Assembly (NCBI GenBank): GCA_030426845.1
Contig: JAUHXR010000042.1
Location: 1-41,614, forward strand
Length of the DNA: 41,614 bases
Direction of reading: 5' to 3'
Origin: Polyangia bacterium
GTDB lineage: Bacteria; Myxococcota_A; Polyangia; Polyangiales; Sandaracinaceae
Positions 1,379 to 17,890 of this stretch are shown piece by piece. The notes under the pieces were generated by a model. It made no database searches and was not told where the DNA came from. It was given only the letters and a program-made list of their open reading frames with translations. A program made the translations under genes and the position numbers. How positions within the stretch are numbered: position 1 is the stretch's first letter; every line of letters begins with the position of its first letter.

Positions 1379-2380
1379 TCAAGGGACGCAGAAGCGGAGG
1401 CCGCCGCCGGTGTCCTCGCACGTCTGCGTGGCCTGGTCGGAGCAGTCGGTGTCGCTGCCGCACGGCTGCGCGCAGACCCCGGGGGTGATCGCGCCGCCAT
1501 CCGGAGCGCCGCCGTCAACGCCGCCGCCGTCGATGACCCCGGCGTCGACCCCCGGCGGCACGACCTCGCCCTCGCAGGCGCTCACGAAGAAGACCGACGC
1601 GCCGCGCGACCCGGCGGGGTTGCAGTCGTCGTCCGCGGTGCAGGCCGTGCGGGAGACCGCCGCGCGCCAGGTCGTGCACGACTCCCCCGCGATCGGAACG
1701 CAGCTCCCGCCGTCACACGTGAGCCCGTTGGGGCACGGCGTCGCCAGGTCGCAGGTCTGCAAGCAAACCTGCTCCCGCCAGCCGAGGGCTTCGCGGCTCG
1801 CGCAGGTGCCGACGAAGGCCCCGCCGCCCGAGTCGCAGTCCTCCGTGGCGTTGCACGGCTCGCACTGCGCGGGCAGACGCTCGACGCAACGCCCGTTGGC
1901 CACGTCGCAGACCGGCTGGAGCCCCGCGCAGGCGCCAGGCTCGCCCGACGCGGCCCCGACGGTGTCCTCGCTGCACTGGCCGCACTGGCCTGACTGCGGG
2001 TGACATACCTCGGGGTCCGCGCACATCACCCCGTCGCACGGGAAGAGCGGACCCGCGTCGGGGCCCGGGCCGGCGTCGGGCGCGGGGCCGACGCGCCGCA
2101 CGCAGATGCCGCCCGAGCTGCAGGTCTCACGCGGGCCGCACTCCGCGTCGTCGCTGCACTCGGCGTAGCACCGGCCGAGCACGCAGACCTCCCCGCTCGG
2201 GCAGGTGAGCGGCGCGCCGCCGTCCATCCCCGCGCCGGCCTCTGAGGCCTCGACGTCGACGAGGCACTCGAGCGCCTGGTCCTCGATCGGCGGGGCGGGC
2301 GCCGCCGGCGTGTCATCGCAGCCGACGAGCGAGGTCAAGACGACCGCGATACCGCCAAGCCGGAGCCATCGTGCAAGCAC
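1379..2380 (-). CDS. Cys-rich lipoprotein of myxobacterial type
   Basis: The protein has 333 residues and starts at a GTG. A lipobox (Leu-Val-Gly-Cys, lipidated Cys at ~21) ends a 20-residue signal sequence, so the mature protein is probably membrane-anchored in the envelope. The rest is rich in Cys pairs, with units such as CPSGEVCVLGRC and CSDDAECGPRETC separated by Pro/Asp/Gly linkers, like the disulfide-rich EGF-like or 'Dickkopf-like' modules common in myxobacterial lipoproteins. No catalytic motif is visible. A TAGCGT hexamer 6 nt upstream of the GTG and a GTGACG box 18 nt above it form a plausible promoter for a leaderless mRNA. Function is unknown; adhesion, binding or structural roles are possible. 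Confidence 0.82.
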   Translation of the reverse strand: MLARWLRLGGIAVVLTSLVGCDDTPAAPAPPIEDQALECLVDVEASEAGAGMDGGAPLTCPSGEVCVLGRCYAECSDDAECGPRETCSSGGICVRRVGPAPDAGPGPDAGPLFPCDGVMCADPEVCHPQSGQCGQCSEDTVGAASGEPGACAGLQPVCDVANGRCVERLPAQCEPCNATEDCDSGGGAFVGTCASREALGWREQVCLQTCDLATPCPNGLTCDGGSCVPIAGESCTTWRAAVSRTACTADDDCNPAGSRGASVFFVSACEGEVVPPGVDAGVIDGGGVDGGAPDGGAITPGVCAQPCGSDTDCSDQATQTCEDTGGGLRFCVP

Positions 2381-2386
2381 GAGGGC

Positions 2387-2416
2387 ACGCTACCACGTCG
2401 CGCGAAGCGGCGTCAC
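2387..2416 (-). promoter_or_regulatory. Promoter of the Cys-rich lipoprotein gene
   Basis: On the minus strand GTGACG (2416–2411) and TAGCGT (2392–2387) are separated by 18 nt. The -10 box ends 6 nt before the GTG at 2380, so the transcript would begin at or next to the start codon. Inferred from consensus only. Confidence 0.45.
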
Positions 2417-2500
2417 CACGGCTGCGACCCGCGGGCGCGAGGCCGGGTCGGGGCCCGCCCCTTCTACCTGACGGGATCCCGCACTATAACCGGCCGACCG

Positions 2501-3163
2501 ATGACCACGATTCACGCCGGCGCCACGCTCGAGCGCCCTCCTGGAAAGAAGTACTCCGCGAGCCTTGGCTTCGCCGAGCTGGCGCTCCCCGAGCCGCTGC
2601 CCAAGGCGGGGACCCTGCGCGGCTGGGCCCGCGACCTGCCGGAGGAGCTGACCCTCGCGCTGGTCGTCCCCCCCGCGGCTCACACGTCCGCGGAGGGGCC
2701 GCTGCGCTTCGACGACGCCATGCAGCGCGCGTTCGACCGCTGCGTCGAGGGCGCGGACGCGCTCGGAGCGCGGTTCGTCGTGCTCCCGACCGACGGCCGG
2801 GTGACGACCGGGCAGCGGAGCCGCGACGCGCTCGCAGCCTGGTTCGAGCGCTGGCCCGCCGACGAGCGCCGACAGCTCGTCTGGCACCCCACCGGGCTGT
2901 GGGACCCGGAGCTCGCCGCGCCCTTCGCGGGCAAGCTCGGCGCGCTCCACGCCGTCGATCCGCTCGAGCAGGATCTGCCGGTCGGCGCCCCCGTGCTCTA
3001 CGCCCGGCTCCGCGCGATCGGAATGCGGGCCCGCTTCCACGAGACCCTGCTCCTCGACGCCCTCGACGCGATCGAGGCCGCCGCGCCCGAGCAGGCGTGG
3101 GTCGCGATCGAGTCGCCGCGCTCGTTCAAGGAGGCCTGCCGGCTGCAAGAGCTCGCCACGTGA
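2501..3163 (+). CDS. DUF72 (YecE-like) family protein, divergent
   Basis: The protein has 220 residues. The pattern of a 'LRGWARDLPEELTLAL' strand-helix near residue 40, a 'GARFVVLP' strand near 90, a Trp-His-Pro segment near 125 (where DUF72 proteins carry Glu-Phe-Arg-His) and a 'VLYARLRAIG' strand near 165 (family: YvRlhG) fits the TIM-barrel-like DUF72 fold. It is shorter than the usual 240–290 residues and several family motifs are altered. DUF72 has no established biochemical role. The ATG has no clear Shine-Dalgarno; TATAAC lies 10 nt upstream. The stop overlaps the GTG of the next gene, so the two are probably co-translated. The family assignment rests on pattern rather than strong motifs. 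Confidence 0.62.
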   Translation: MTTIHAGATLERPPGKKYSASLGFAELALPEPLPKAGTLRGWARDLPEELTLALVVPPAAHTSAEGPLRFDDAMQRAFDRCVEGADALGARFVVLPTDGRVTTGQRSRDALAAWFERWPADERRQLVWHPTGLWDPELAAPFAGKLGALHAVDPLEQDLPVGAPVLYARLRAIGMRARFHETLLLDALDAIEAAAPEQAWVAIESPRSFKEACRLQELAT

Positions 3164-4473
3164 GCGACGCCGAACCGCTCGCCCGCTGGCGCGTCCGGCG
3201 GGTGGACGGCCCGGCGCCCGGCGTCTTCGCGCTCACCCTCAAGCCCCCCGCGGGGGCCTCGACCGAGACGCTGCTGGTCACGACCTCGGGCTGGGGCCTG
3301 GTCGAGGCGCGGCCCCGCGGCCGGCCCGCGTCGGCCGCGGTCCAGCTCCTGCGCAAGCACCTCGCAGGCGGAGTGATCGAGCGCCTGAGCGCGGACGAGA
3401 CGGAGGCCCGGCTCGCGGCGCGGCGCGGCGATCGCCGAGCCGCGATCGTGCTGCGCGCCGACGGCGGCCTGACCCTCGAGGTCGATGGCCGAAGCCACCC
3501 GCTCGGCCACGGACCTCCGGCCCGCGAACCGCCGCCGACCGAGCTCGAGGCGCTGCGGGTGAGCGGGCTCCGGCTGGCGCGGGCCGCGTCCGGTGGCGCT
3601 CTGACGCGCGCGCGCGACGCGCTCGCCAAGCCCCTGCGTCGGGAGATCGCCAAGCTCCGCCGCCGCCTGACCAAGATCGAGGCGGACCGCGCCCGGGTCA
3701 CGGAGGTCGAGGCGCTCCGGGCGACGGGCTCCGCGCTCCTCGCGGAGCTGCACCGCCTTCCGCCCGACGCCCGCGAGGTCGAGGTCACCGACTGGACAAC
3801 CGATCCTCCGACCCCACACCGCATCACGCTCGGGCCGGGGCGCGGCCCGCGCGAGGAGGCGGACGCCCGCTTCGCCCGCGCGCGGAAGCTGGAGCGAGGC
3901 GCGGCGATCGCGACGGAGCGCGCGCACCTGACCCAGGAGGCGGTGGACACGCTCGACGCCCTGCTCGCGCAGGTCGAGTCGGCTGGAAGCGTCGAGGCGC
4001 TCGCACCGCTGCGCGCCCGCGCCGAGCGCCACGGCGTACGCCCGCTCGAGCCAGCGAAGCGAGGGCCTGCGCCCGCTCCGCGTAGGCCCTACCATCTGTT
4101 CCGTGGCGCGGGCGATCGGGAGATCCTGGTCGGCAAGACCGCGCAGGACAACGACGCCCTGACGCTCTCGGCCAAGCCGTGGGACCACTGGCTCCACGCG
4201 CGCGGGGTGGCCGGCTCCCACGTCGTCGTGCCGCTCCAGCGCGGCGAGAGCTGCCCCGCCGAGCTGCTGGTCGACGCCGCACACCTCGCCGCGCACCACT
4301 CGAAGCTGCGCGGCGAGGCGAGGGTCGAAGTGACCCACGTCTCGCGCCGCCACGTGCGCAAGCCCCGCGGCTACCCCGCCGGGGCGGTTCGGGTCGAGCG
4401 CGAGAAGGTGCTGACGCTCCGGCTCGAGCCCGAGCGACTGGCGCGGCTGATCCGGTCCGGCCGCCCCGCGTGA
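3160..4473 (+). CDS. RqcH/NFACT-family protein, short form
   Basis: The protein has 437 residues, starting at a GTG inside the stop of the upstream gene. RqcH (Rqc2/NEMF) binds obstructed large ribosomal subunits and recruits tRNA-Ala for alanine tailing. Residues 1–125 resemble a cut-down NFACT-N domain (LLRKHLAGGVIE at 63–74). Residues ~145–290 are charged helices like the coiled-coil arms. Residues ~310–420 are a well-kept NFACT-R (DUF814) domain with KTAQDNDALT, a Trp-Asp-His-Trp-Leu-His element and RGVAGSHVVV. It is much shorter than typical RqcH (~570), with no obvious helix-hairpin-helix region. By eye, the position of the conserved Asp-Arg pair after the LLRKH helix reads Ala83-Arg84, so tailing activity is doubtful. 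A role in ribosome rescue without tailing is an inference. Confidence 0.8.
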   Translation: MSDAEPLARWRVRRVDGPAPGVFALTLKPPAGASTETLLVTTSGWGLVEARPRGRPASAAVQLLRKHLAGGVIERLSADETEARLAARRGDRRAAIVLRADGGLTLEVDGRSHPLGHGPPAREPPPTELEALRVSGLRLARAASGGALTRARDALAKPLRREIAKLRRRLTKIEADRARVTEVEALRATGSALLAELHRLPPDAREVEVTDWTTDPPTPHRITLGPGRGPREEADARFARARKLERGAAIATERAHLTQEAVDTLDALLAQVESAGSVEALAPLRARAERHGVRPLEPAKRGPAPAPRRPYHLFRGAGDREILVGKTAQDNDALTLSAKPWDHWLHARGVAGSHVVVPLQRGESCPAELLVDAAHLAAHHSKLRGEARVEVTHVSRRHVRKPRGYPAGAVRVEREKVLTLRLEPERLARLIRSGRPA

Positions 4474-10397: not shown

Positions 10398-11354
10398 CTA
10401 CTCGACCCGGAGGAAACCGTTCTTGAGCAGGTTCACGAGGATCTGGCAGGTGTCCACGTCGCTCGCGAGGCTCTTGTTGAGGATCGTCTCCACGTGGCCG
10501 TAGTTGTAGGCGAGCTGCAGGACGTCGAGCTCCTCCGCCGAAAGGTCGCGGAGCGGCGGGATCATCGGCATCGCGAGGGAGATGCTCGCGTGCATCGGGG
10601 GCATGTCCGGGCCGAGGCGGCGGACCTCGTCGATCTGCCGCATCGCCTCCATGAGGATGCCCTCGGTGCTCATGTTGATCGGCTCGCTGAACTGCCGATC
10701 CTCGGGCGGCTCCATGTCGAAGGTGCCGTCGACCCAGGTGAGCACGCGGTACAGGCTCTTGAGCGGCGGCACGTCGAAATTGTCATTGACGACCGCGTAG
10801 ACGACGCCCCCGCCGTCGAAATAGATCTTGCCGACGTCGTGGTCGGTGCGAATGACGAGCACGCCGCTCTTCTTGCTGGCGGTGAAGAGCTGCATGAGGT
10901 CCGGGAGCGGGATCTCCGCGATGGAGCCGCTCATCGTCCGGACCTGTGAGGTGCGCCGGCCCGCGGCGACATCCTCGAGGTTGGCCGCGCCCGCGTCCGG
11001 CGCGGCGCTGTCAGCCGCGACGAGCTTGATGATGCTCGTACCGATGAGGATCCGGTCGCCCTCCTGGAGACGCGCCCGCTTGATCTTCTCGCCGTTGACG
11101 AAGGTGCCGTTCGTCGAGCCCAGATCCTGGATGAAGATCTGGTCGCCGGTGACCGTGATCTTGGCGTGGCGCCGCGAGACCATGTCCTCGACGAGGACCA
11201 TGTCGAGCTCGCTGGAGCGCCCGACGACGATCTCCTTGCTGTTCGGGAGAGGGAACTCGCCCCCCTGGTACTTGCCGGAGATGAACCTCAGCGCGTACTG
11301 CTTGGCCGACCGCGAAGGCGGCGGCGGGGTCATCTTGGGAACCGAGGGCTCCAT
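10398..11354 (-). CDS. FHA-domain protein with DUF4388 (PatA-like) domain
   Basis: The protein has 318 residues. Residues ~20–112 are an FHA domain with the phosphothreonine-binding signature (Gly45-Arg46, Ser60-Arg-Arg-His63, TNGTFVNG at 81–88). Residues ~141–245 match DUF4388/PatA-N (SGSIAEIPLPDLMQLFTASKKSGVLVI, quoted in part: SIAEIPLPDLMQLF). The last ~50 residues are helical. Such proteins read Ser/Thr-kinase signalling, plausible in a genome with Hanks kinases (one lies at 37818). There is no transmembrane segment, so it should be cytoplasmic. The ATG has a poor ribosome site; a good promoter lies ~65 nt upstream. Confidence 0.9.
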   Translation of the reverse strand: MEPSVPKMTPPPPSRSAKQYALRFISGKYQGGEFPLPNSKEIVVGRSSELDMVLVEDMVSRRHAKITVTGDQIFIQDLGSTNGTFVNGEKIKRARLQEGDRILIGTSIIKLVAADSAAPDAGAANLEDVAAGRRTSQVRTMSGSIAEIPLPDLMQLFTASKKSGVLVIRTDHDVGKIYFDGGGVVYAVVNDNFDVPPLKSLYRVLTWVDGTFDMEPPEDRQFSEPINMSTEGILMEAMRQIDEVRRLGPDMPPMHASISLAMPMIPPLRDLSAEELDVLQLAYNYGHVETILNKSLASDVDTCQILVNLLKNGFLRVE

Positions 11355-11554: not shown

Positions 11555-14449
11555 GTGGCCCGCCGGAACGCCGCCGTCGCCCTTGCCCTCGCGCTGATCG
11601 CGGCGTTCGGCGGGGTCGACCGGGCAGCCGCCCAGGCGCGGGATCCGACGGTCGAGTGGCGCACGATCGATACGCCCCACTTCACGATCTACTACCACGT
11701 GCCGCTCGGGGTCCTCGCCCGGCGCGTCGCGGTGGTCGGCGAGCGAGCCCACGCGGTGCTGTCGGAGGTGATGGCCTACGAGGCCGACCGGCGGACCTAT
11801 GTCGTCCTCAGCGACGGCACCGACTCGGCGAACGGCAGCGCGATCGCTCTGCCGATCAACACCATCCGGCTCAACGCCACCGCGCCATCGGCGATGTCGC
11901 CCCTCGGCGACTACGACGACTGGCTGAACCTGCTCGTCACCCACGAGCACACCCACATCGTGCACCTCGACCAGTGGTCGGGGGTGGCGTCGTTCATCAA
12001 CCTCCTCCTCGGGCGAACCTACGCGCCCAACCACGTCCAGCCGCGCTTCATCCTCGAGGGCGTCGCGACGTGGCAGGAGACCGAGCGGACCGCCGGCGGG
12101 CGCCTGCGCTCGACGATGTTCGACATGTACCTGCGGATGGACGCGCTCGAGGGTCGCTTCTTCGATCTCGACCAGGTCTCGAACAGCGCCGACCGCTGGC
12201 CGCACGGGAACGTCTGGTACCTCTACGGCTCGCAGTTCATCCGCTACGTCGCGGGCCGGTTCGGTCGCGAGGCCATCGCGGGCATGGCGGTCGAGTACGG
12301 CGGCGAGGCGATCCCCTGGGGCATCAACCGGGTGCTGTCGCGGGTCACCGGGCGCACCTTCGTCCAGCTCTATGACGACTTCCTCGCGGAGCGGCGCGCG
12401 CACTACGAGGCGCAGCGGGACGCGGTGGTCGCGGCGGGGCTCGTCGAGGGCGAGCGCCTCACGCACCACGGCGAGCTCGCGCGCCTGCCGCGGTTCCTGC
12501 CCGACGGGCGCGTGGCCTACTGGCGCGCCGACCGGCGCGACCGCGACCGCATCCAGGTCTTCGCGCTCGATCGACCCGACGACCAGTCGACCTGGGCGCG
12601 CGTCTCGGGCGACCCCGGCTTCGACGCCCACCCGAGCCAGCGCCAGGTGATCTACTCGCGGCTCGACAACCACCTCGACGTCTACCGGTTCCACGATCTG
12701 TTTCGCGAGGATCTCGAGACCGGGCGGGTCGATCGGCTGACCCACGGGGCGCGCGCCCGCGAGCCGGACGTCTCATGGGACGGCCGGCGCGTGACCTACA
12801 CCGTCAACGAGGCTGGAACCACACACCTGATGGTGGCGGAGCTCCGCGACGTCGAGGGCACCGCGCGACGCCTCCTCACCAACGCGCGCTTCGACCAGGT
12901 CTTCAACCCACGGTTCTCTCCCGACGGACGCACGATCGCGTTCTCCCGGTGGCAGCGCGGCGGCTATCGCGACGTCCAGCTCCTCGACGTGGAGACGGGC
13001 GAGATCACAGCGGTGACCCACGACCGCGCGCTCGACACCGGCCCGTGCTGGTCGAGCGACGGCCGCACGCTCTACTTCAGCTCGGACCGCACCGGCATCG
13101 CGAACATCTACGCCTTCTCGATGACGAGCGGGCGGCTCCACCAGGTCACCAACGTGGTCGCGGGCGCCTACCAGCCCGCGATCTCGGCCGACGGTCGGAC
13201 GCTCGTCTACGTCGGGTACACGAGCTTCGGGTTCGACCTCTACCGCCTCGACCTGAGCCGCCACCCGCGCCGCGCGGCGCCCAGCTACGAGGACCGCCGG
13301 CCTGCCGCCGTGGCCGACGAAGACCTGTGGGCGGGGCCGTCGAGCGCCTACCAGCCGCTCGACACGCTGTGGCCGCGCTCGTACCTCCTCGACCTCACCG
13401 ACAACGGCTTCGGCCCGGCGATCGGGGTGAGCGTCGGCGCGACGGACCTCGTGGGGCACCACTCGTGGGCGCTGCGCGCGGTGACGGGGGTGACCCACGG
13501 CCACATGAACGTCGACGCGACCTACTCGCTGCGCCGCCTGCCGCTCGCGATCGACGCCCGCCTCTTCCGCGTGGTCGCGCCGCGCGGCGGCTTCACCCTG
13601 AACGGCGAGGAGACCGAGTGGATCGAGGAGGCGGTCGGGGGAGAGATCGCCGTCGGATACACGCTCCCCGACGCGTTCCGCAGCCAGCGCGTCGGCCTCT
13701 CCTACCGCGGGACCTACGCGGACAACGCGGCGCCCTTCCCCACCCGGCTCGACCCGAACACCCCGCCGCCGCGCTACCCGGCGCTCGGCTACCGCTCGGA
13801 GCTCGTCCTGTCCTGGAGCTACTCCGACGTCGAGCGCTACGGCTACGACATCAGCCCGTCCAACGGGCGGGCGCTCGGCTTCGCGCTGTCGGTCTTCGAC
13901 CCGCTGATCGGCAGCACGCTCCGCGGCGTCGAGCTGACGTGGTTCTTCCGCCAGTTCATCCGCATGCCGTGGCTCCAGCACCACGTCCTCGCGTTCCACT
14001 ACACGGGCGGCATCGCGGGCGGCGACCTCCGCGGGCGGGGCTCGTTCGGGATCGGCGGCTTCGGCGCGGTGACCCCGGTCGACGGGCTGCTCAACGGCGT
14101 GATCCTCGGAGGCATCGCGCTCCGTGGCTACCCGGCGTTCGATCGCTCGGGCAACCAGTACCACCTCGCGCAGCTCGAGTACCGCTTCCCCCTCTTCCGC
14201 ATCAACCACGGGCTGTGGACGCTGCCGGTCTTCCTCAACCGCGTCTACGCCTCCGCCTTCGTCGACGCGGGGGACGCCTTCTTCGGGCAGCTCGACCTCG
14301 AGACCTTCCGACTCGGCGTGGGAGGAGCAATCCTCGTGGACTTCACGCTCGGCTACCTCCTGCCCTTCACGCTGCGCGTCGGCTACGCGCGCGGGCTGAT
14401 GGAGGGCGGCGTCGACCAGGTCTTCGGGCATCTGGGCGTGCCCTTCTGA
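11555..14449 (+). CDS. Gluzincin-like protease fused to a TolB-like propeller and an Omp85-type barrel
   Basis: The protein has 964 residues from a GTG. Residues 1–27 are a signal peptide ending in Ala-Ala-Ala-Gln. Residues ~32–285 form a peptidase-MA-like zinc domain with His130-Glu131-His132-Thr133-His134 (HExxH) and a downstream Glu168-Gly-Val-Ala-Thr element giving the third ligand. Residues ~285–585 hold several PD40/TolB propeller blades (FSPDGRTIAFSRW, SSDGRTLYFSSDRTG, ISADGRTLVYVG). Residues ~595–964 alternate amphipathic strands as an outer-membrane barrel, with an LRGY motif near 856 typical of BamA/TamA surface antigens. The likely product is an outer-membrane protein carrying its own protease and propeller. 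No POTRA repeats are seen. Substrate and side of the membrane are unknown. Confidence 0.85.
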   Translation: MARRNAAVALALALIAAFGGVDRAAAQARDPTVEWRTIDTPHFTIYYHVPLGVLARRVAVVGERAHAVLSEVMAYEADRRTYVVLSDGTDSANGSAIALPINTIRLNATAPSAMSPLGDYDDWLNLLVTHEHTHIVHLDQWSGVASFINLLLGRTYAPNHVQPRFILEGVATWQETERTAGGRLRSTMFDMYLRMDALEGRFFDLDQVSNSADRWPHGNVWYLYGSQFIRYVAGRFGREAIAGMAVEYGGEAIPWGINRVLSRVTGRTFVQLYDDFLAERRAHYEAQRDAVVAAGLVEGERLTHHGELARLPRFLPDGRVAYWRADRRDRDRIQVFALDRPDDQSTWARVSGDPGFDAHPSQRQVIYSRLDNHLDVYRFHDLFREDLETGRVDRLTHGARAREPDVSWDGRRVTYTVNEAGTTHLMVAELRDVEGTARRLLTNARFDQVFNPRFSPDGRTIAFSRWQRGGYRDVQLLDVETGEITAVTHDRALDTGPCWSSDGRTLYFSSDRTGIANIYAFSMTSGRLHQVTNVVAGAYQPAISADGRTLVYVGYTSFGFDLYRLDLSRHPRRAAPSYEDRRPAAVADEDLWAGPSSAYQPLDTLWPRSYLLDLTDNGFGPAIGVSVGATDLVGHHSWALRAVTGVTHGHMNVDATYSLRRLPLAIDARLFRVVAPRGGFTLNGEETEWIEEAVGGEIAVGYTLPDAFRSQRVGLSYRGTYADNAAPFPTRLDPNTPPPRYPALGYRSELVLSWSYSDVERYGYDISPSNGRALGFALSVFDPLIGSTLRGVELTWFFRQFIRMPWLQHHVLAFHYTGGIAGGDLRGRGSFGIGGFGAVTPVDGLLNGVILGGIALRGYPAFDRSGNQYHLAQLEYRFPLFRINHGLWTLPVFLNRVYASAFVDAGDAFFGQLDLETFRLGVGGAILVDFTLGYLLPFTLRVGYARGLMEGGVDQVFGHLGVPF

Positions 14450-14557: not shown

Positions 14558-15115
14558 TCAGATCTCCATCACGTCCTTCTCCTTCTTGGCGACGATCGTG
14601 TCGGTCCCGGCGTTCCCCTCCTGCACGATCGCCTCGACCTTCTTCATCGCGCGGTCGGCGTCGTCCTCGCTCACCTCGCCCTCCTTCTTGAGGGTCTCGA
14701 GGATGCCCTTGGCGTCGTGGCGCGCGGCGCGGATGGCGATCTTGCACTTCTCGCCGTAGTCGCGGACCACCTTGGTGATCTCGCGGCGCCGCTCCTCGGT
14801 GAGCATCGGGATCGGGATGCGGATGATCTCGCCGTCGTTCTGCGGATTCAGGTCGAGCGGGCTCGTCGCGATCGCCTTCTCGATGACCTGGATGGTGGTC
14901 TTGTCGTACGGCTTGACGATCAGCATCCGCGCCTCGGGGACGGTGATGCTCGCCATCTGGTTCAGCGGCGTCATCGAGCCGTAGTAGTCGACGCGGATCG
15001 AGTTGAGGATGTCCGGGCTCGCGCGACCGGTGCGGAGCTTGGTGAGGTCCCGCTTCAGGGCGGCGTGGGCGTTGCCGATCGCCTCCGTGAGCTCTTCCAG
15101 GGTCTCGTCGATCAT
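14558..15115 (-). CDS. frr: Ribosome recycling factor
   Basis: The protein has 185 residues, the standard RRF length. With EF-G it splits post-termination ribosomes in the cytoplasm. Family features are clear: LRTGRASPDILNSIRVDYYG (the conserved helix I end), TPLNQMASITVPEARMLIV, and the C-terminal helix with AIRAARHDAKGIL. GGAGAG lies 6 nt before the ATG. It is the last gene of the rpsB–tsf–pyrH–frr cluster, 71 nt after pyrH. Confidence 0.97.
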   Translation of the reverse strand: MIDETLEELTEAIGNAHAALKRDLTKLRTGRASPDILNSIRVDYYGSMTPLNQMASITVPEARMLIVKPYDKTTIQVIEKAIATSPLDLNPQNDGEIIRIPIPMLTEERRREITKVVRDYGEKCKIAIRAARHDAKGILETLKKEGEVSEDDADRAMKKVEAIVQEGNAGTDTIVAKKEKDVMEI

Positions 15116-15186
15116 CAGAATCTCTCCGTGGGCGAGGGGCAGCGGGCGAGGTGCAGCGGGGCGCGGGACACGTGACGGTTGCCGAG

Positions 15187-15918
15187 TCAGCCTTCTTCTG
15201 TGACGAGCGTCCCGACGTCCTCACCCATCACGACCCGCTTCACGTTCCCGTGCTGTTTGAGCGAGCACACGCGAATCGGGAGCTTGTTGTCGCGACACAG
15301 CGTGATCGCGGTGGAGTCCATGACCGCGAGGCGCTCGGCGAGCACACGGTCGTAGCTGAGGCGGCGCAGGAGGACCGCGTCGGAGTGGATGGCGGGGTCC
15401 TTGTCGAACACGCCCTCCACCTTGGTCGCCTTTACCAGCAGCTCCGCCCCGATCTCCATGGAGCGCAGCGCGGCCGCGGTGTCGGTGGAGAAGTAGGGGT
15501 TGCCGGTGCCGGCGGCGAAGATGACCACCCGCTTCTTCTCCAGGTGGCGCATCGCGCGGCGGCGGATGTACGGCTCGGCGACCTCCCGGATCTCGAGCGC
15601 GCTGAGCACGCGTGTCGGGATCTTGAGCTTCTCCAGCGCATCCTGGAGGGCGAGGGCGTTGATGACCGTCGCGAGCATGCCCATGTAGTCGGCGCTCGCG
15701 CGGTCCATCCCCTGGGCGCTCCCGCGGAGGCCGCGGAAGATGTTCCCGCCGCCGATCACGAGGCAGATCTCGGCGCCGAGCGCGTGCACCTCGCCCACCT
15801 CGGAGCTGATCGTGCGCAGCGTCTCCGGGTCGACGCCGTACCCGGTGTCACCGCACAACGCCTCGCCCGAGAGCTTGAGCATGACGCGGCGGACAGCGAG
15901 TTGTGGCGAGGCGCTCAT
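15187..15918 (-). CDS. pyrH: Uridylate kinase (UMP kinase)
   Basis: The protein has 243 residues of the amino-acid-kinase fold and phosphorylates UMP to UDP. It shows [10 protein letters not shown] at the start, [10 protein letters not shown] for phosphate binding, [19 protein letters not shown], and [19 protein letters not shown] near the nucleotide site. The ATG at 15918 matches the family N-terminus; the frame stays open upstream but that part crosses the tsf terminator. GGAG lies 14 nt upstream, which is far for a ribosome site. Any promoter must fit in the ~33 nt after the tsf terminator, so read-through transcription is more likely. Confidence 0.96.
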
Positions 15919-15950
15919 CGGCGCGGAGTCTACTCCTTTTCGAGGTCCCG

Positions 15951-15993
15951 AAAAGAGCGAAGCTCGCCTCCCCGGGGCGGGAAGGCGAGCTTC
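15951..15993 (-). terminator. Intrinsic terminator or attenuator between tsf and pyrH
   Basis: A perfect 11-bp stem (GAAGCTCGCCT, 15959–15969, with 15983–15993) is followed on the minus strand by GCTCTTTT. It should end most rpsB–tsf transcripts and set the lower expression of pyrH–frr by partial read-through. Confidence 0.75.
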
Positions 15994-16055
15994 ATCGGCG
16001 CTCGAGGCGTCTAGGTGACCGACCGCGATACGAGGATCGTGGGCGGTCATGCAGC

Positions 16056-16733
16056 TCAGGCGCCCGCGAGGGTCGCCGCGACGTCGGCCGCGAGATCGGC
16101 CTTCTTGACCTCGATGCCCTCGCCGAGCTCGTAGCGGACGAACCGGCGGATCGCGAGCTTCTCACCGATCTTGGCCGAGAGCGCCTCGACCGCGGAGCCG
16201 ACCGTGGTCTTCTCCTCGCGGGTGACGAGCTCCTGGTTCTCGAGGCACGCCTCGTTCATCCACTTGGCGAGCTTGCCCTCGATGATCTTCTCGAGCGCGG
16301 CGGCGGGCTTCTCCTTGCCGGTCTGCTTCGCCTCCTCCTCGAGCTGACCCTGGAAGATGCGCTTCTTCTGCTCGATGTCCTCGGCCGGGATCTCCGACTC
16401 GCGCACGTAGAGCGGCGAGCTGCTGGCGATCTGGAGGCCGATCTCGTCCACCAGGGAGCGGAAGTCCTCGTTGCGCGCGACGAAGTCGGTCTGGCAGTTG
16501 ACCTCGACCAGCACGCCGATGCGGTTGCCCGCGTGGATGTAGCCGTGGATGAGGCCCTCGGCCGCGATCGCGCCGGCGCGCTTGGCGACCTTCGCGAGGC
16601 CCTTCTTCTGGATGATCTCGAGCGCCTTCTCCTGATCGCCGTCGGCCTCGAGGAGGGCGTTCTTGCAGTCCATCATGCCGGCGCCCGTGCGGTCGCGCAG
16701 CGCCTTGACGTCCTTAGCGGTGACGTTAGCCAT
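16056..16733 (-). CDS. tsf: Elongation factor Ts
   Basis: The protein has 225 residues, the short EF-Ts form. It exchanges GDP for GTP on EF-Tu. The N-terminal UBA-like domain ([19 protein letters not shown]) and the core motif [13 protein letters not shown], whose Thr-Asp-Phe-Val contacts EF-Tu, are intact, as is the coiled-coil-like [11 protein letters not shown] helix region. The ATG is preceded by AAGGAGTAG. It follows rpsB by 33 nt in the conserved rpsB–tsf operon. Confidence 0.97.
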
Positions 16734-16766
16734 TCGAATCTACTCCTTGGAAGGAAAGGGGCCCGC

Positions 16767-17732
16767 TCAGCGGCGGGGGCGGCCGCGACCGCGGCGGCCG
16801 CGCTGGAACTCGACCTGCACGTTCTCGCCCTGGCCGGCCTGCACGCCGTAGCCCTGCTGCGAGTAGTCGCGCCGGCGCTGCTGACCCGCGACGCACGCGT
16901 CGGCGATGCGGCCGGTGAAGAGCTTGATCGAGCGGATCGCGTCGTCGTTGCCCGGGACCACGAAGTCGATCTGGTCGGGGTCGCAGTTCGTGTCGGTGAT
17001 CGCGACGATCGGGATGTGGAGCTTGCGCGCCTCGCGGATCGCGATGTGCTCGTGGTGCGGGTCGATGACGAACAGCACCGAGGGGAGCGTGTTCATCATC
17101 TTGATGCCGCCGATGAACTTCTCGAGGCGCTCCTGCTCGCGGCGCATCCGGAGCTGCTCCTTCTTGAGGAGCTGCTCGGCGGTGCCGTCCTCGAACATCC
17201 GCTCGAGCTCGCGGAGGCGCTCGATGGCGCCCTTGACGGTGCGGAAGTTGGTCAGCGTGCCGCCGAGCCAGCGGCCGGTGACGTAGAACTGACCGGCGCG
17301 CGACGCCTCCTCACGGACGACCTCGACCGCCTGGCGCTTCGTGCCGACGAAGAGCACGTGCCCGCCGCGGGCCACCGCCTCCTGGACGAAGTTGAACGCG
17401 CGCTGGAAGAGCACGGCGGTCTGGTCCAGGTCGATGATGTGGATCCCGTTGCGCGCACCGAAGATGAAGGGGCGCATCTTCGGGTTCCAGCGACGGGTCT
17501 GATGTCCGAAGTGGACGCCGGCGTCGATCAACGCGCGCAGCCCGATGGGCAGGTCGCCGCTGGCCGCGGGGTGCGAGTCGGGGGCCTCCACCATGGGCGC
17601 CTCGGGGGCGGTCGCGGCGGGAGCCGCCTCTGCCGCAGCAGCGGGGGCCTCGGCGGCGGGGGCCTCGGCGGCGGGAGCTTCGGGCGCAGGGTTGGCTTCG
17701 GCGGGGGCCGCCATGGTCTCTTCGTCACTCAT
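16767..17732 (-). CDS. rpsB: 30S ribosomal protein S2 with an Ala/Pro-rich N-terminal extension
   Basis: The protein has 321 residues against ~240 in E. coli. The S2 core starts near residue 58 ([20 protein letters not shown]) and includes [19 protein letters not shown] and [12 protein letters not shown]. Residues 1–57 are a disordered-looking Ala/Pro/Glu extension with repeated Ala-Pro-Ala-Ala-Glu units. The C-terminus ends in an Arg/Gly-rich basic tail ([10 protein letters not shown]). The ATG at 17732 is chosen because it has AAAGGAA upstream; an in-frame GTG 30 nt further up has none. It leads the tsf–pyrH–frr cluster. Confidence 0.95.
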
Positions 17733-17890
17733 GAGCTCGTTCCTTTCCGGTTGTTCCACCACCCCCTCGGCCGACGACCCACGCGCGAGGCGAGGGCACC
17801 GGATCGGTCCGTTCGAGCAGGGGGTGTGCGTGATTTCGGGCCCTTCGGTCGATGCCTCGGGGTCCGGCCCCGGCGATCCGAGGCGGCGCG

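Follow-up and report, generated by a model that had tools for sequence, protein, structure and literature searches.

WD40-Omp85 has been described as one of ten subfamilies of the Omp85 superfamily (Heinz & Lithgow 2014, PMC4104836), and its members are said to have a WD40/TolB-like propeller before the Omp85 barrel and to lack POTRA domains. In the part of that account drawn on here, the propeller is not said to be preceded by a peptidase. The account also lists a "Metallo" subfamily, which it takes for metalloproteases because of their PF00149 domain; as this entry is named calcineurin-like phosphoesterase in Pfam, the subfamily so defined is not the one studied here. BamA, TamA and Sam50 share a 16-strand barrel fold with an RG(Y/F) loop and carry POTRA domains. 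In PlpD, a patatin-Omp85 protein, a patatin lipase stands N-terminal to the barrel with one POTRA and without a propeller, and this enzyme domain is periplasmic (PMC11116518). Among soluble enzymes, BepA of Escherichia coli, an M48 peptidase with TPR and without barrel or propeller, is a periplasmic zinc metallopeptidase whose targets are outer-membrane proteins at the BAM complex (PMC8423444).

We analyzed a gene for a 964-residue protein in a 41,614-nt contig of a myxococcal genome (the window; Polyangia, Sandaracinaceae). A sequence-only reading had interpreted the protein as a gluzincin-type peptidase, a TolB-like propeller and an Omp85 barrel in one chain without POTRA repeats, and profiles, motifs and fold matches bear this out (Table 1). 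The GC content of the three codon positions, 0.70/0.48/0.96, marks it as a genuine gene of a GC-rich genome; long antisense frames over the gene mirror this pattern and were dismissed as shadow frames. Over the full length, homologues can be aligned with identities from 69% to about 25%. As the three modules are found in one polypeptide across many species, faulty assembly does not account for the fusion, and the architecture is a widely conserved family rather than a local oddity. A simple scan of the window protein found no lipobox, and a promoter and terminator scan found nothing.

Table 1. Position of the gene and its features in the window
Feature	Residues	Window position	Strand	Basis
Whole gene, peptidase–propeller–Omp85 barrel fusion	1-964	11555..14449	+	GTG start, stop at 14447-14449; relatives align end to end
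Sec signal peptide	1-26	11555..11632	+	Hydrophobic stretch, then AAA-Q; ends near AAA26
Gluzincin-like (peptidase MA clan) domain	27-300	11633..12454	+	Pfam matches in relatives; M1-fold matches; ColG alignment
HEHTH (HExxH); putative zinc ligands H130 and H134, putative catalytic E131	130-134	11942..11956	+	Invariant in 68/68; in register with M1 HExxH
FILEGVA; putative third zinc ligand E168	165-171	12047..12067	+	Aligned to W..EG.A of collagenase G
Tyr222, candidate transition-state stabiliser (role inferred)	222	12218..12220	+	Invariant in 68/68
TolB-like beta-propeller with PD40 repeats	~301-570	12455..13264	+	PD40; TolB PDB matches; fold Z
16-strand Omp85-type outer-membrane barrel	~605-964	13367..14446	+	Strand count; fold; BamA profile; Pfam Omp85
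LRGY in L6 loop	856-859	14120..14131	+	Matches LRG in D. radiodurans BamA alignment

The propeller gave a PD40 match in the window protein at E=2.6e-25 (Pfam). TolB is both its nearest fold (Z 24-26) and its nearest PDB sequence (E down to 5e-33 with the family profile). It is TolB-like only, since its score of 118.5 bits stays below the 343 required by the TolB equivalog model.

The sequence-only reading had set Omp85-like folding of the barrel as a test beforehand, and the model passed it. In an AlphaFold2 prediction from nine sequences (mean pLDDT 69.6), 16 transmembrane strands begin at residue 609, and the LRGY motif follows strand 11 and precedes strand 12, the position it has in BamA; this is the (V/L)RG(F/Y) signature of loop L6 in the Omp85 superfamily. 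Among 65 barrel members, R857 is kept in 63 and G858 in 64. The modelled barrel matched BamA, TamA and Sam50 at Z 22-24 over about 280-315 residues, with an rmsd of 3.1-3.9 to most of the structures (Foldseek, VIA-align). Independently of any model, the family barrel profile aligned with D. radiodurans BamA over 311 positions (E=1.6e-7), LRG on LRG. The Pfam Omp85 family was matched by 11 of 33 members, and the fusion gene is not among its matches in the window's own genome, so routine annotation would overlook the barrel. BamA, TamA, FhaC and PlpD belong to branches with at least one POTRA before the barrel, whereas the window protein has the peptidase and propeller in that place: no POTRA family appeared among the Pfam matches of the 33 members at E<=0.01, and the short stretch between the end of the propeller (~570) and the start of the barrel (~605) has no space for one.

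Pfam did not recognize the peptidase domain in the window protein itself. Among 43 relatives, however, Peptidase_MA_2 was matched by nine (best 2.3e-11) and collagenase M9 by six (best 3.1e-8), and a profile search aligned both motifs with clostridial collagenase G, although at a weak E=0.019. The sequence has the HExxH and downstream Glu that define clan MA gluzincins, and an HExxH followed 20-45 residues on by W/F/YxxEGxA arose in 0.01% of shuffles of the window protein. The Glu in an EGxA helix is likewise common to Peptidase_MA_2, M1, M9 collagenase and M61, and a gluzincin fold is tentatively indicated; unlike these families, the domain has 33 residues between the motifs, and Pfam detects only some of the relatives. 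Structure matches of the whole model included no peptidases because those to the propeller and barrel filled the list, and fold matches were therefore obtained by folding the peptidase domain alone. This model has low confidence (pLDDT 61, with much of the region after E168 below 50). Its best 50 matches by Z were all M1-type gluzincins (Z 7.5-9.0), mostly over ~90-100 residues, and the alignments barely cover the E168 helix. In the aligned ranges of this pLDDT 61 model, residue 121 corresponds to residue 306 of LTA4H or 475 of IRAP; counting back from the range ends to the HExxH of these enzymes puts the HExxH of the window protein in register with theirs.

All 68 of the 68 relatives compared keep H130, E131, H134, E168, G169, A171, Y222 and G225 unchanged, and relatives with the invariant catalytic set reach down to about 20% identity and include unfused forms. 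The complete conservation, in unfused forms too, argues that catalysis is under selection.

The propeller and barrel probably correspond to WD40-Omp85: a WD40-like propeller precedes the barrel and POTRA is absent, the correspondence being to the published description (PMC4104836). The sequence-only reading had considered each module known, and this stands, the pairing of propeller and Omp85 barrel having been published as well. Pfam mostly fails to detect the peptidase domain, which is in keeping with its absence from the consulted part of the WD40-Omp85 account. Membership among the patatin-Omp85 proteins was rejected, as neither Pfam nor NCBIfam finds a patatin domain in the protein, which bears the HExxH domain instead. 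A literature search, with most subscription papers outside its coverage, found no paper on the peptidase–propeller–Omp85 architecture. The catalytic domain and the two-gene form described below are apparently unreported in the literature searched.

Of the 174 good Myxococcota genomes, 128 carry the peptidase domain at a threshold of E<=1e-15, mostly as a single copy. Among the nearest sampled relatives of the window, it is present in 46 of 47 good genomes. The full fusion extends to a second phylum, that of a record titled Nitrospirae, where about 20 of 99 genomes have it. Judged from these sequences, the spread of the domain and the fusions is housekeeping-like. Some Myxococcota have a second, diverged copy (L101-L107) that keeps HExxH and the EG.A motif. 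The barrel profile found no match in several of these copies, and several of their frames, at about 940-1030 aa, are long enough for another C-terminal domain. In the neighbourhoods, synteny was kept only within orders: no operon partner was conserved across orders in the 27 studied, and the only matches identified more widely were generic ABC ATPases.

Three related genomes of the second phylum (L067, L068 and L069) have the architecture split in two. A gene for a peptidase–propeller lipoprotein is followed by a separate gene for a POTRA-less barrel with LRGY (L067:1990-5033, + strand). In L067, the peptidase–propeller has 567 aa and the lipobox ILSAGC, and the barrel is encoded 180 bp downstream by a 386-aa gene with its own signal peptide. 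This barrel scores 2.2e-31 against the family barrel profile, compared with 1.6e-10 for the best other Omp85 of the window's genome. The far better score of the split barrel, together with the lipoprotein nature of the enzyme half, indicates that the two parts belong to one system whose enzyme half resides at a membrane. At the sequence level, the split is a clear sign that the two would work as a pair, with a membrane-located enzyme half. As the three genomes are close relatives, the split probably reflects one evolutionary event.

We propose that the window protein is an outer-membrane-anchored zinc endopeptidase that faces the periplasm and would serve the quality control or maturation of outer-membrane proteins, and give this reading a probability of roughly 0.45. 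From the sequences, the models and the analogies with known systems, we infer the periplasmic topology, the zinc binding, the proteolysis and the quality-control role. According to the proposal, Sec would export the chain, the signal peptide would be cleaved and BAM would insert the C-terminal 16-strand barrel. The gluzincin domain and the propeller would then hang under the barrel, in the place that the POTRA domains occupy in BamA. Like TolB and BamB, the propeller may recognize another protein, a substrate or a partner, and would present it to the HExxH/Glu site for cleavage at the membrane. The most likely substrates would be misassembled or immature outer-membrane proteins or lipoproteins. 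Given the wide spread and the lack of gene partners, a BepA-like role in outer-membrane protein quality control fits best; what is shared with BepA would be a zinc metallopeptidase at the periplasmic face of the outer membrane, the likeness of role being our analogy.

A dedicated role in maturation or secretion would likewise fit the near-single-copy presence, and the main rival explanation, possible but clearly less probable than quality control, is a device in which the periplasmic protease trims a specific client and the Omp85 barrel inserts or exports it, as one TpsB-like or TamA-like machine. Protein assembly or translocation is given as the general function of Omp85 proteins in the consulted part of the subfamily survey (PMC4104836), almost every family member retains the LRGY loop, and protease and barrel remain paired even when split. 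The protein lacks POTRA, however, the substrate-capturing part of known translocases, and no client gene is conserved next to it in 27 neighbourhoods. Its occurrence in most Myxococcota points to a general role and away from a client-specific one, and PlpD shows that an Omp85 barrel can mainly hold an enzyme. A broader variant, a little more doubtful still, would combine the ideas: a phylum-wide, POTRA-free machine in which protease, recognizing propeller and an insertase or translocon barrel proofread or process outer-membrane clients and then insert or export them, with a two-gene version elsewhere. The protein could also be an assembly factor, and the consulted part of Heinz & Lithgow reads WD40-Omp85 proteins as BamA–BamB-like fusions (PMC4104836); the peptidase fold would then be a scaffold, with proteolysis not the main function. 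We consider this improbable, as the full invariance of H130, E131, H134 and E168 in fused and unfused forms is hard to explain without catalysis and HExxH is retained even in the diverged paralogues.

The sequence-only reading had also raised the possibility of a self-displayed protease, the barrel moving the protease and propeller to the cell surface for, e.g., predation or nutrient acquisition. Predators that secrete proteases or bear them on the surface occur among the Myxococcota, which speaks for such a role. In that case, the Omp85 pore would need to let through an alpha-rich peptidase and a propeller in its folded state. They are unlikely to pass such a barrel, and we thus read the protein as periplasm-facing and barrel-tethered; the linker between propeller and barrel is also short. 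PlpD was once proposed to display its enzyme in this manner (type Vd), but its enzyme domain was found to be periplasmic (PMC11116518). As the peptidase–propeller of the split relatives also bears a lipoprotein signal, the Omp85 topology, the lipoprotein form and the analogy with PlpD together favour a periplasmic protease, and surface display appears to be a remote prospect.

With this family, the Omp85 superfamily would gain a predicted catalytic metallopeptidase, and the requirements of a working Omp85 barrel could be examined in a POTRA-free setting. Found mostly as a single copy in about three-quarters of the good Myxococcota genomes and with an invariant active site, it is a strong candidate for an unrecognized part of outer-membrane quality control. 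By sequence and analogy, it is probably an uncharacterized, outer-membrane-tethered protease that faces the periplasm and is encoded by one gene in most Myxococcota genomes sampled.

Barrel-less forms occur as well. The Salinibacter plasmid pSR116 encodes a peptidase–propeller annotated as "basic secretory protein-like" (L100:3369-7186, + strand), and among plasmid relatives, it was found alongside propeller matches only. The gene downstream resembles a serine carboxypeptidase by eye, and the barrel profile found no match in it. In the tree of peptidase domains, the split and Salinibacter sequences group together on long branches.

The neighbourhood shared by close relatives of the window consists of RNase E/G, an FHA-DUF4388 gene and frr-pyrH-tsf-rpsB. 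In the window, frr, an amino-acid-kinase gene (likely pyrH), tsf and rpsB stand in a row at 14558-17762 on the - strand, convergent with the fusion gene. The gene for the FHA and DUF4388 protein, kept in close relatives, lies on the other side (10398-11354, - strand) and is divergent from it. Farther upstream, the window encodes an NFACT-domain (Rqc2/RqcH-like) protein at 2371-4473 on the + strand.
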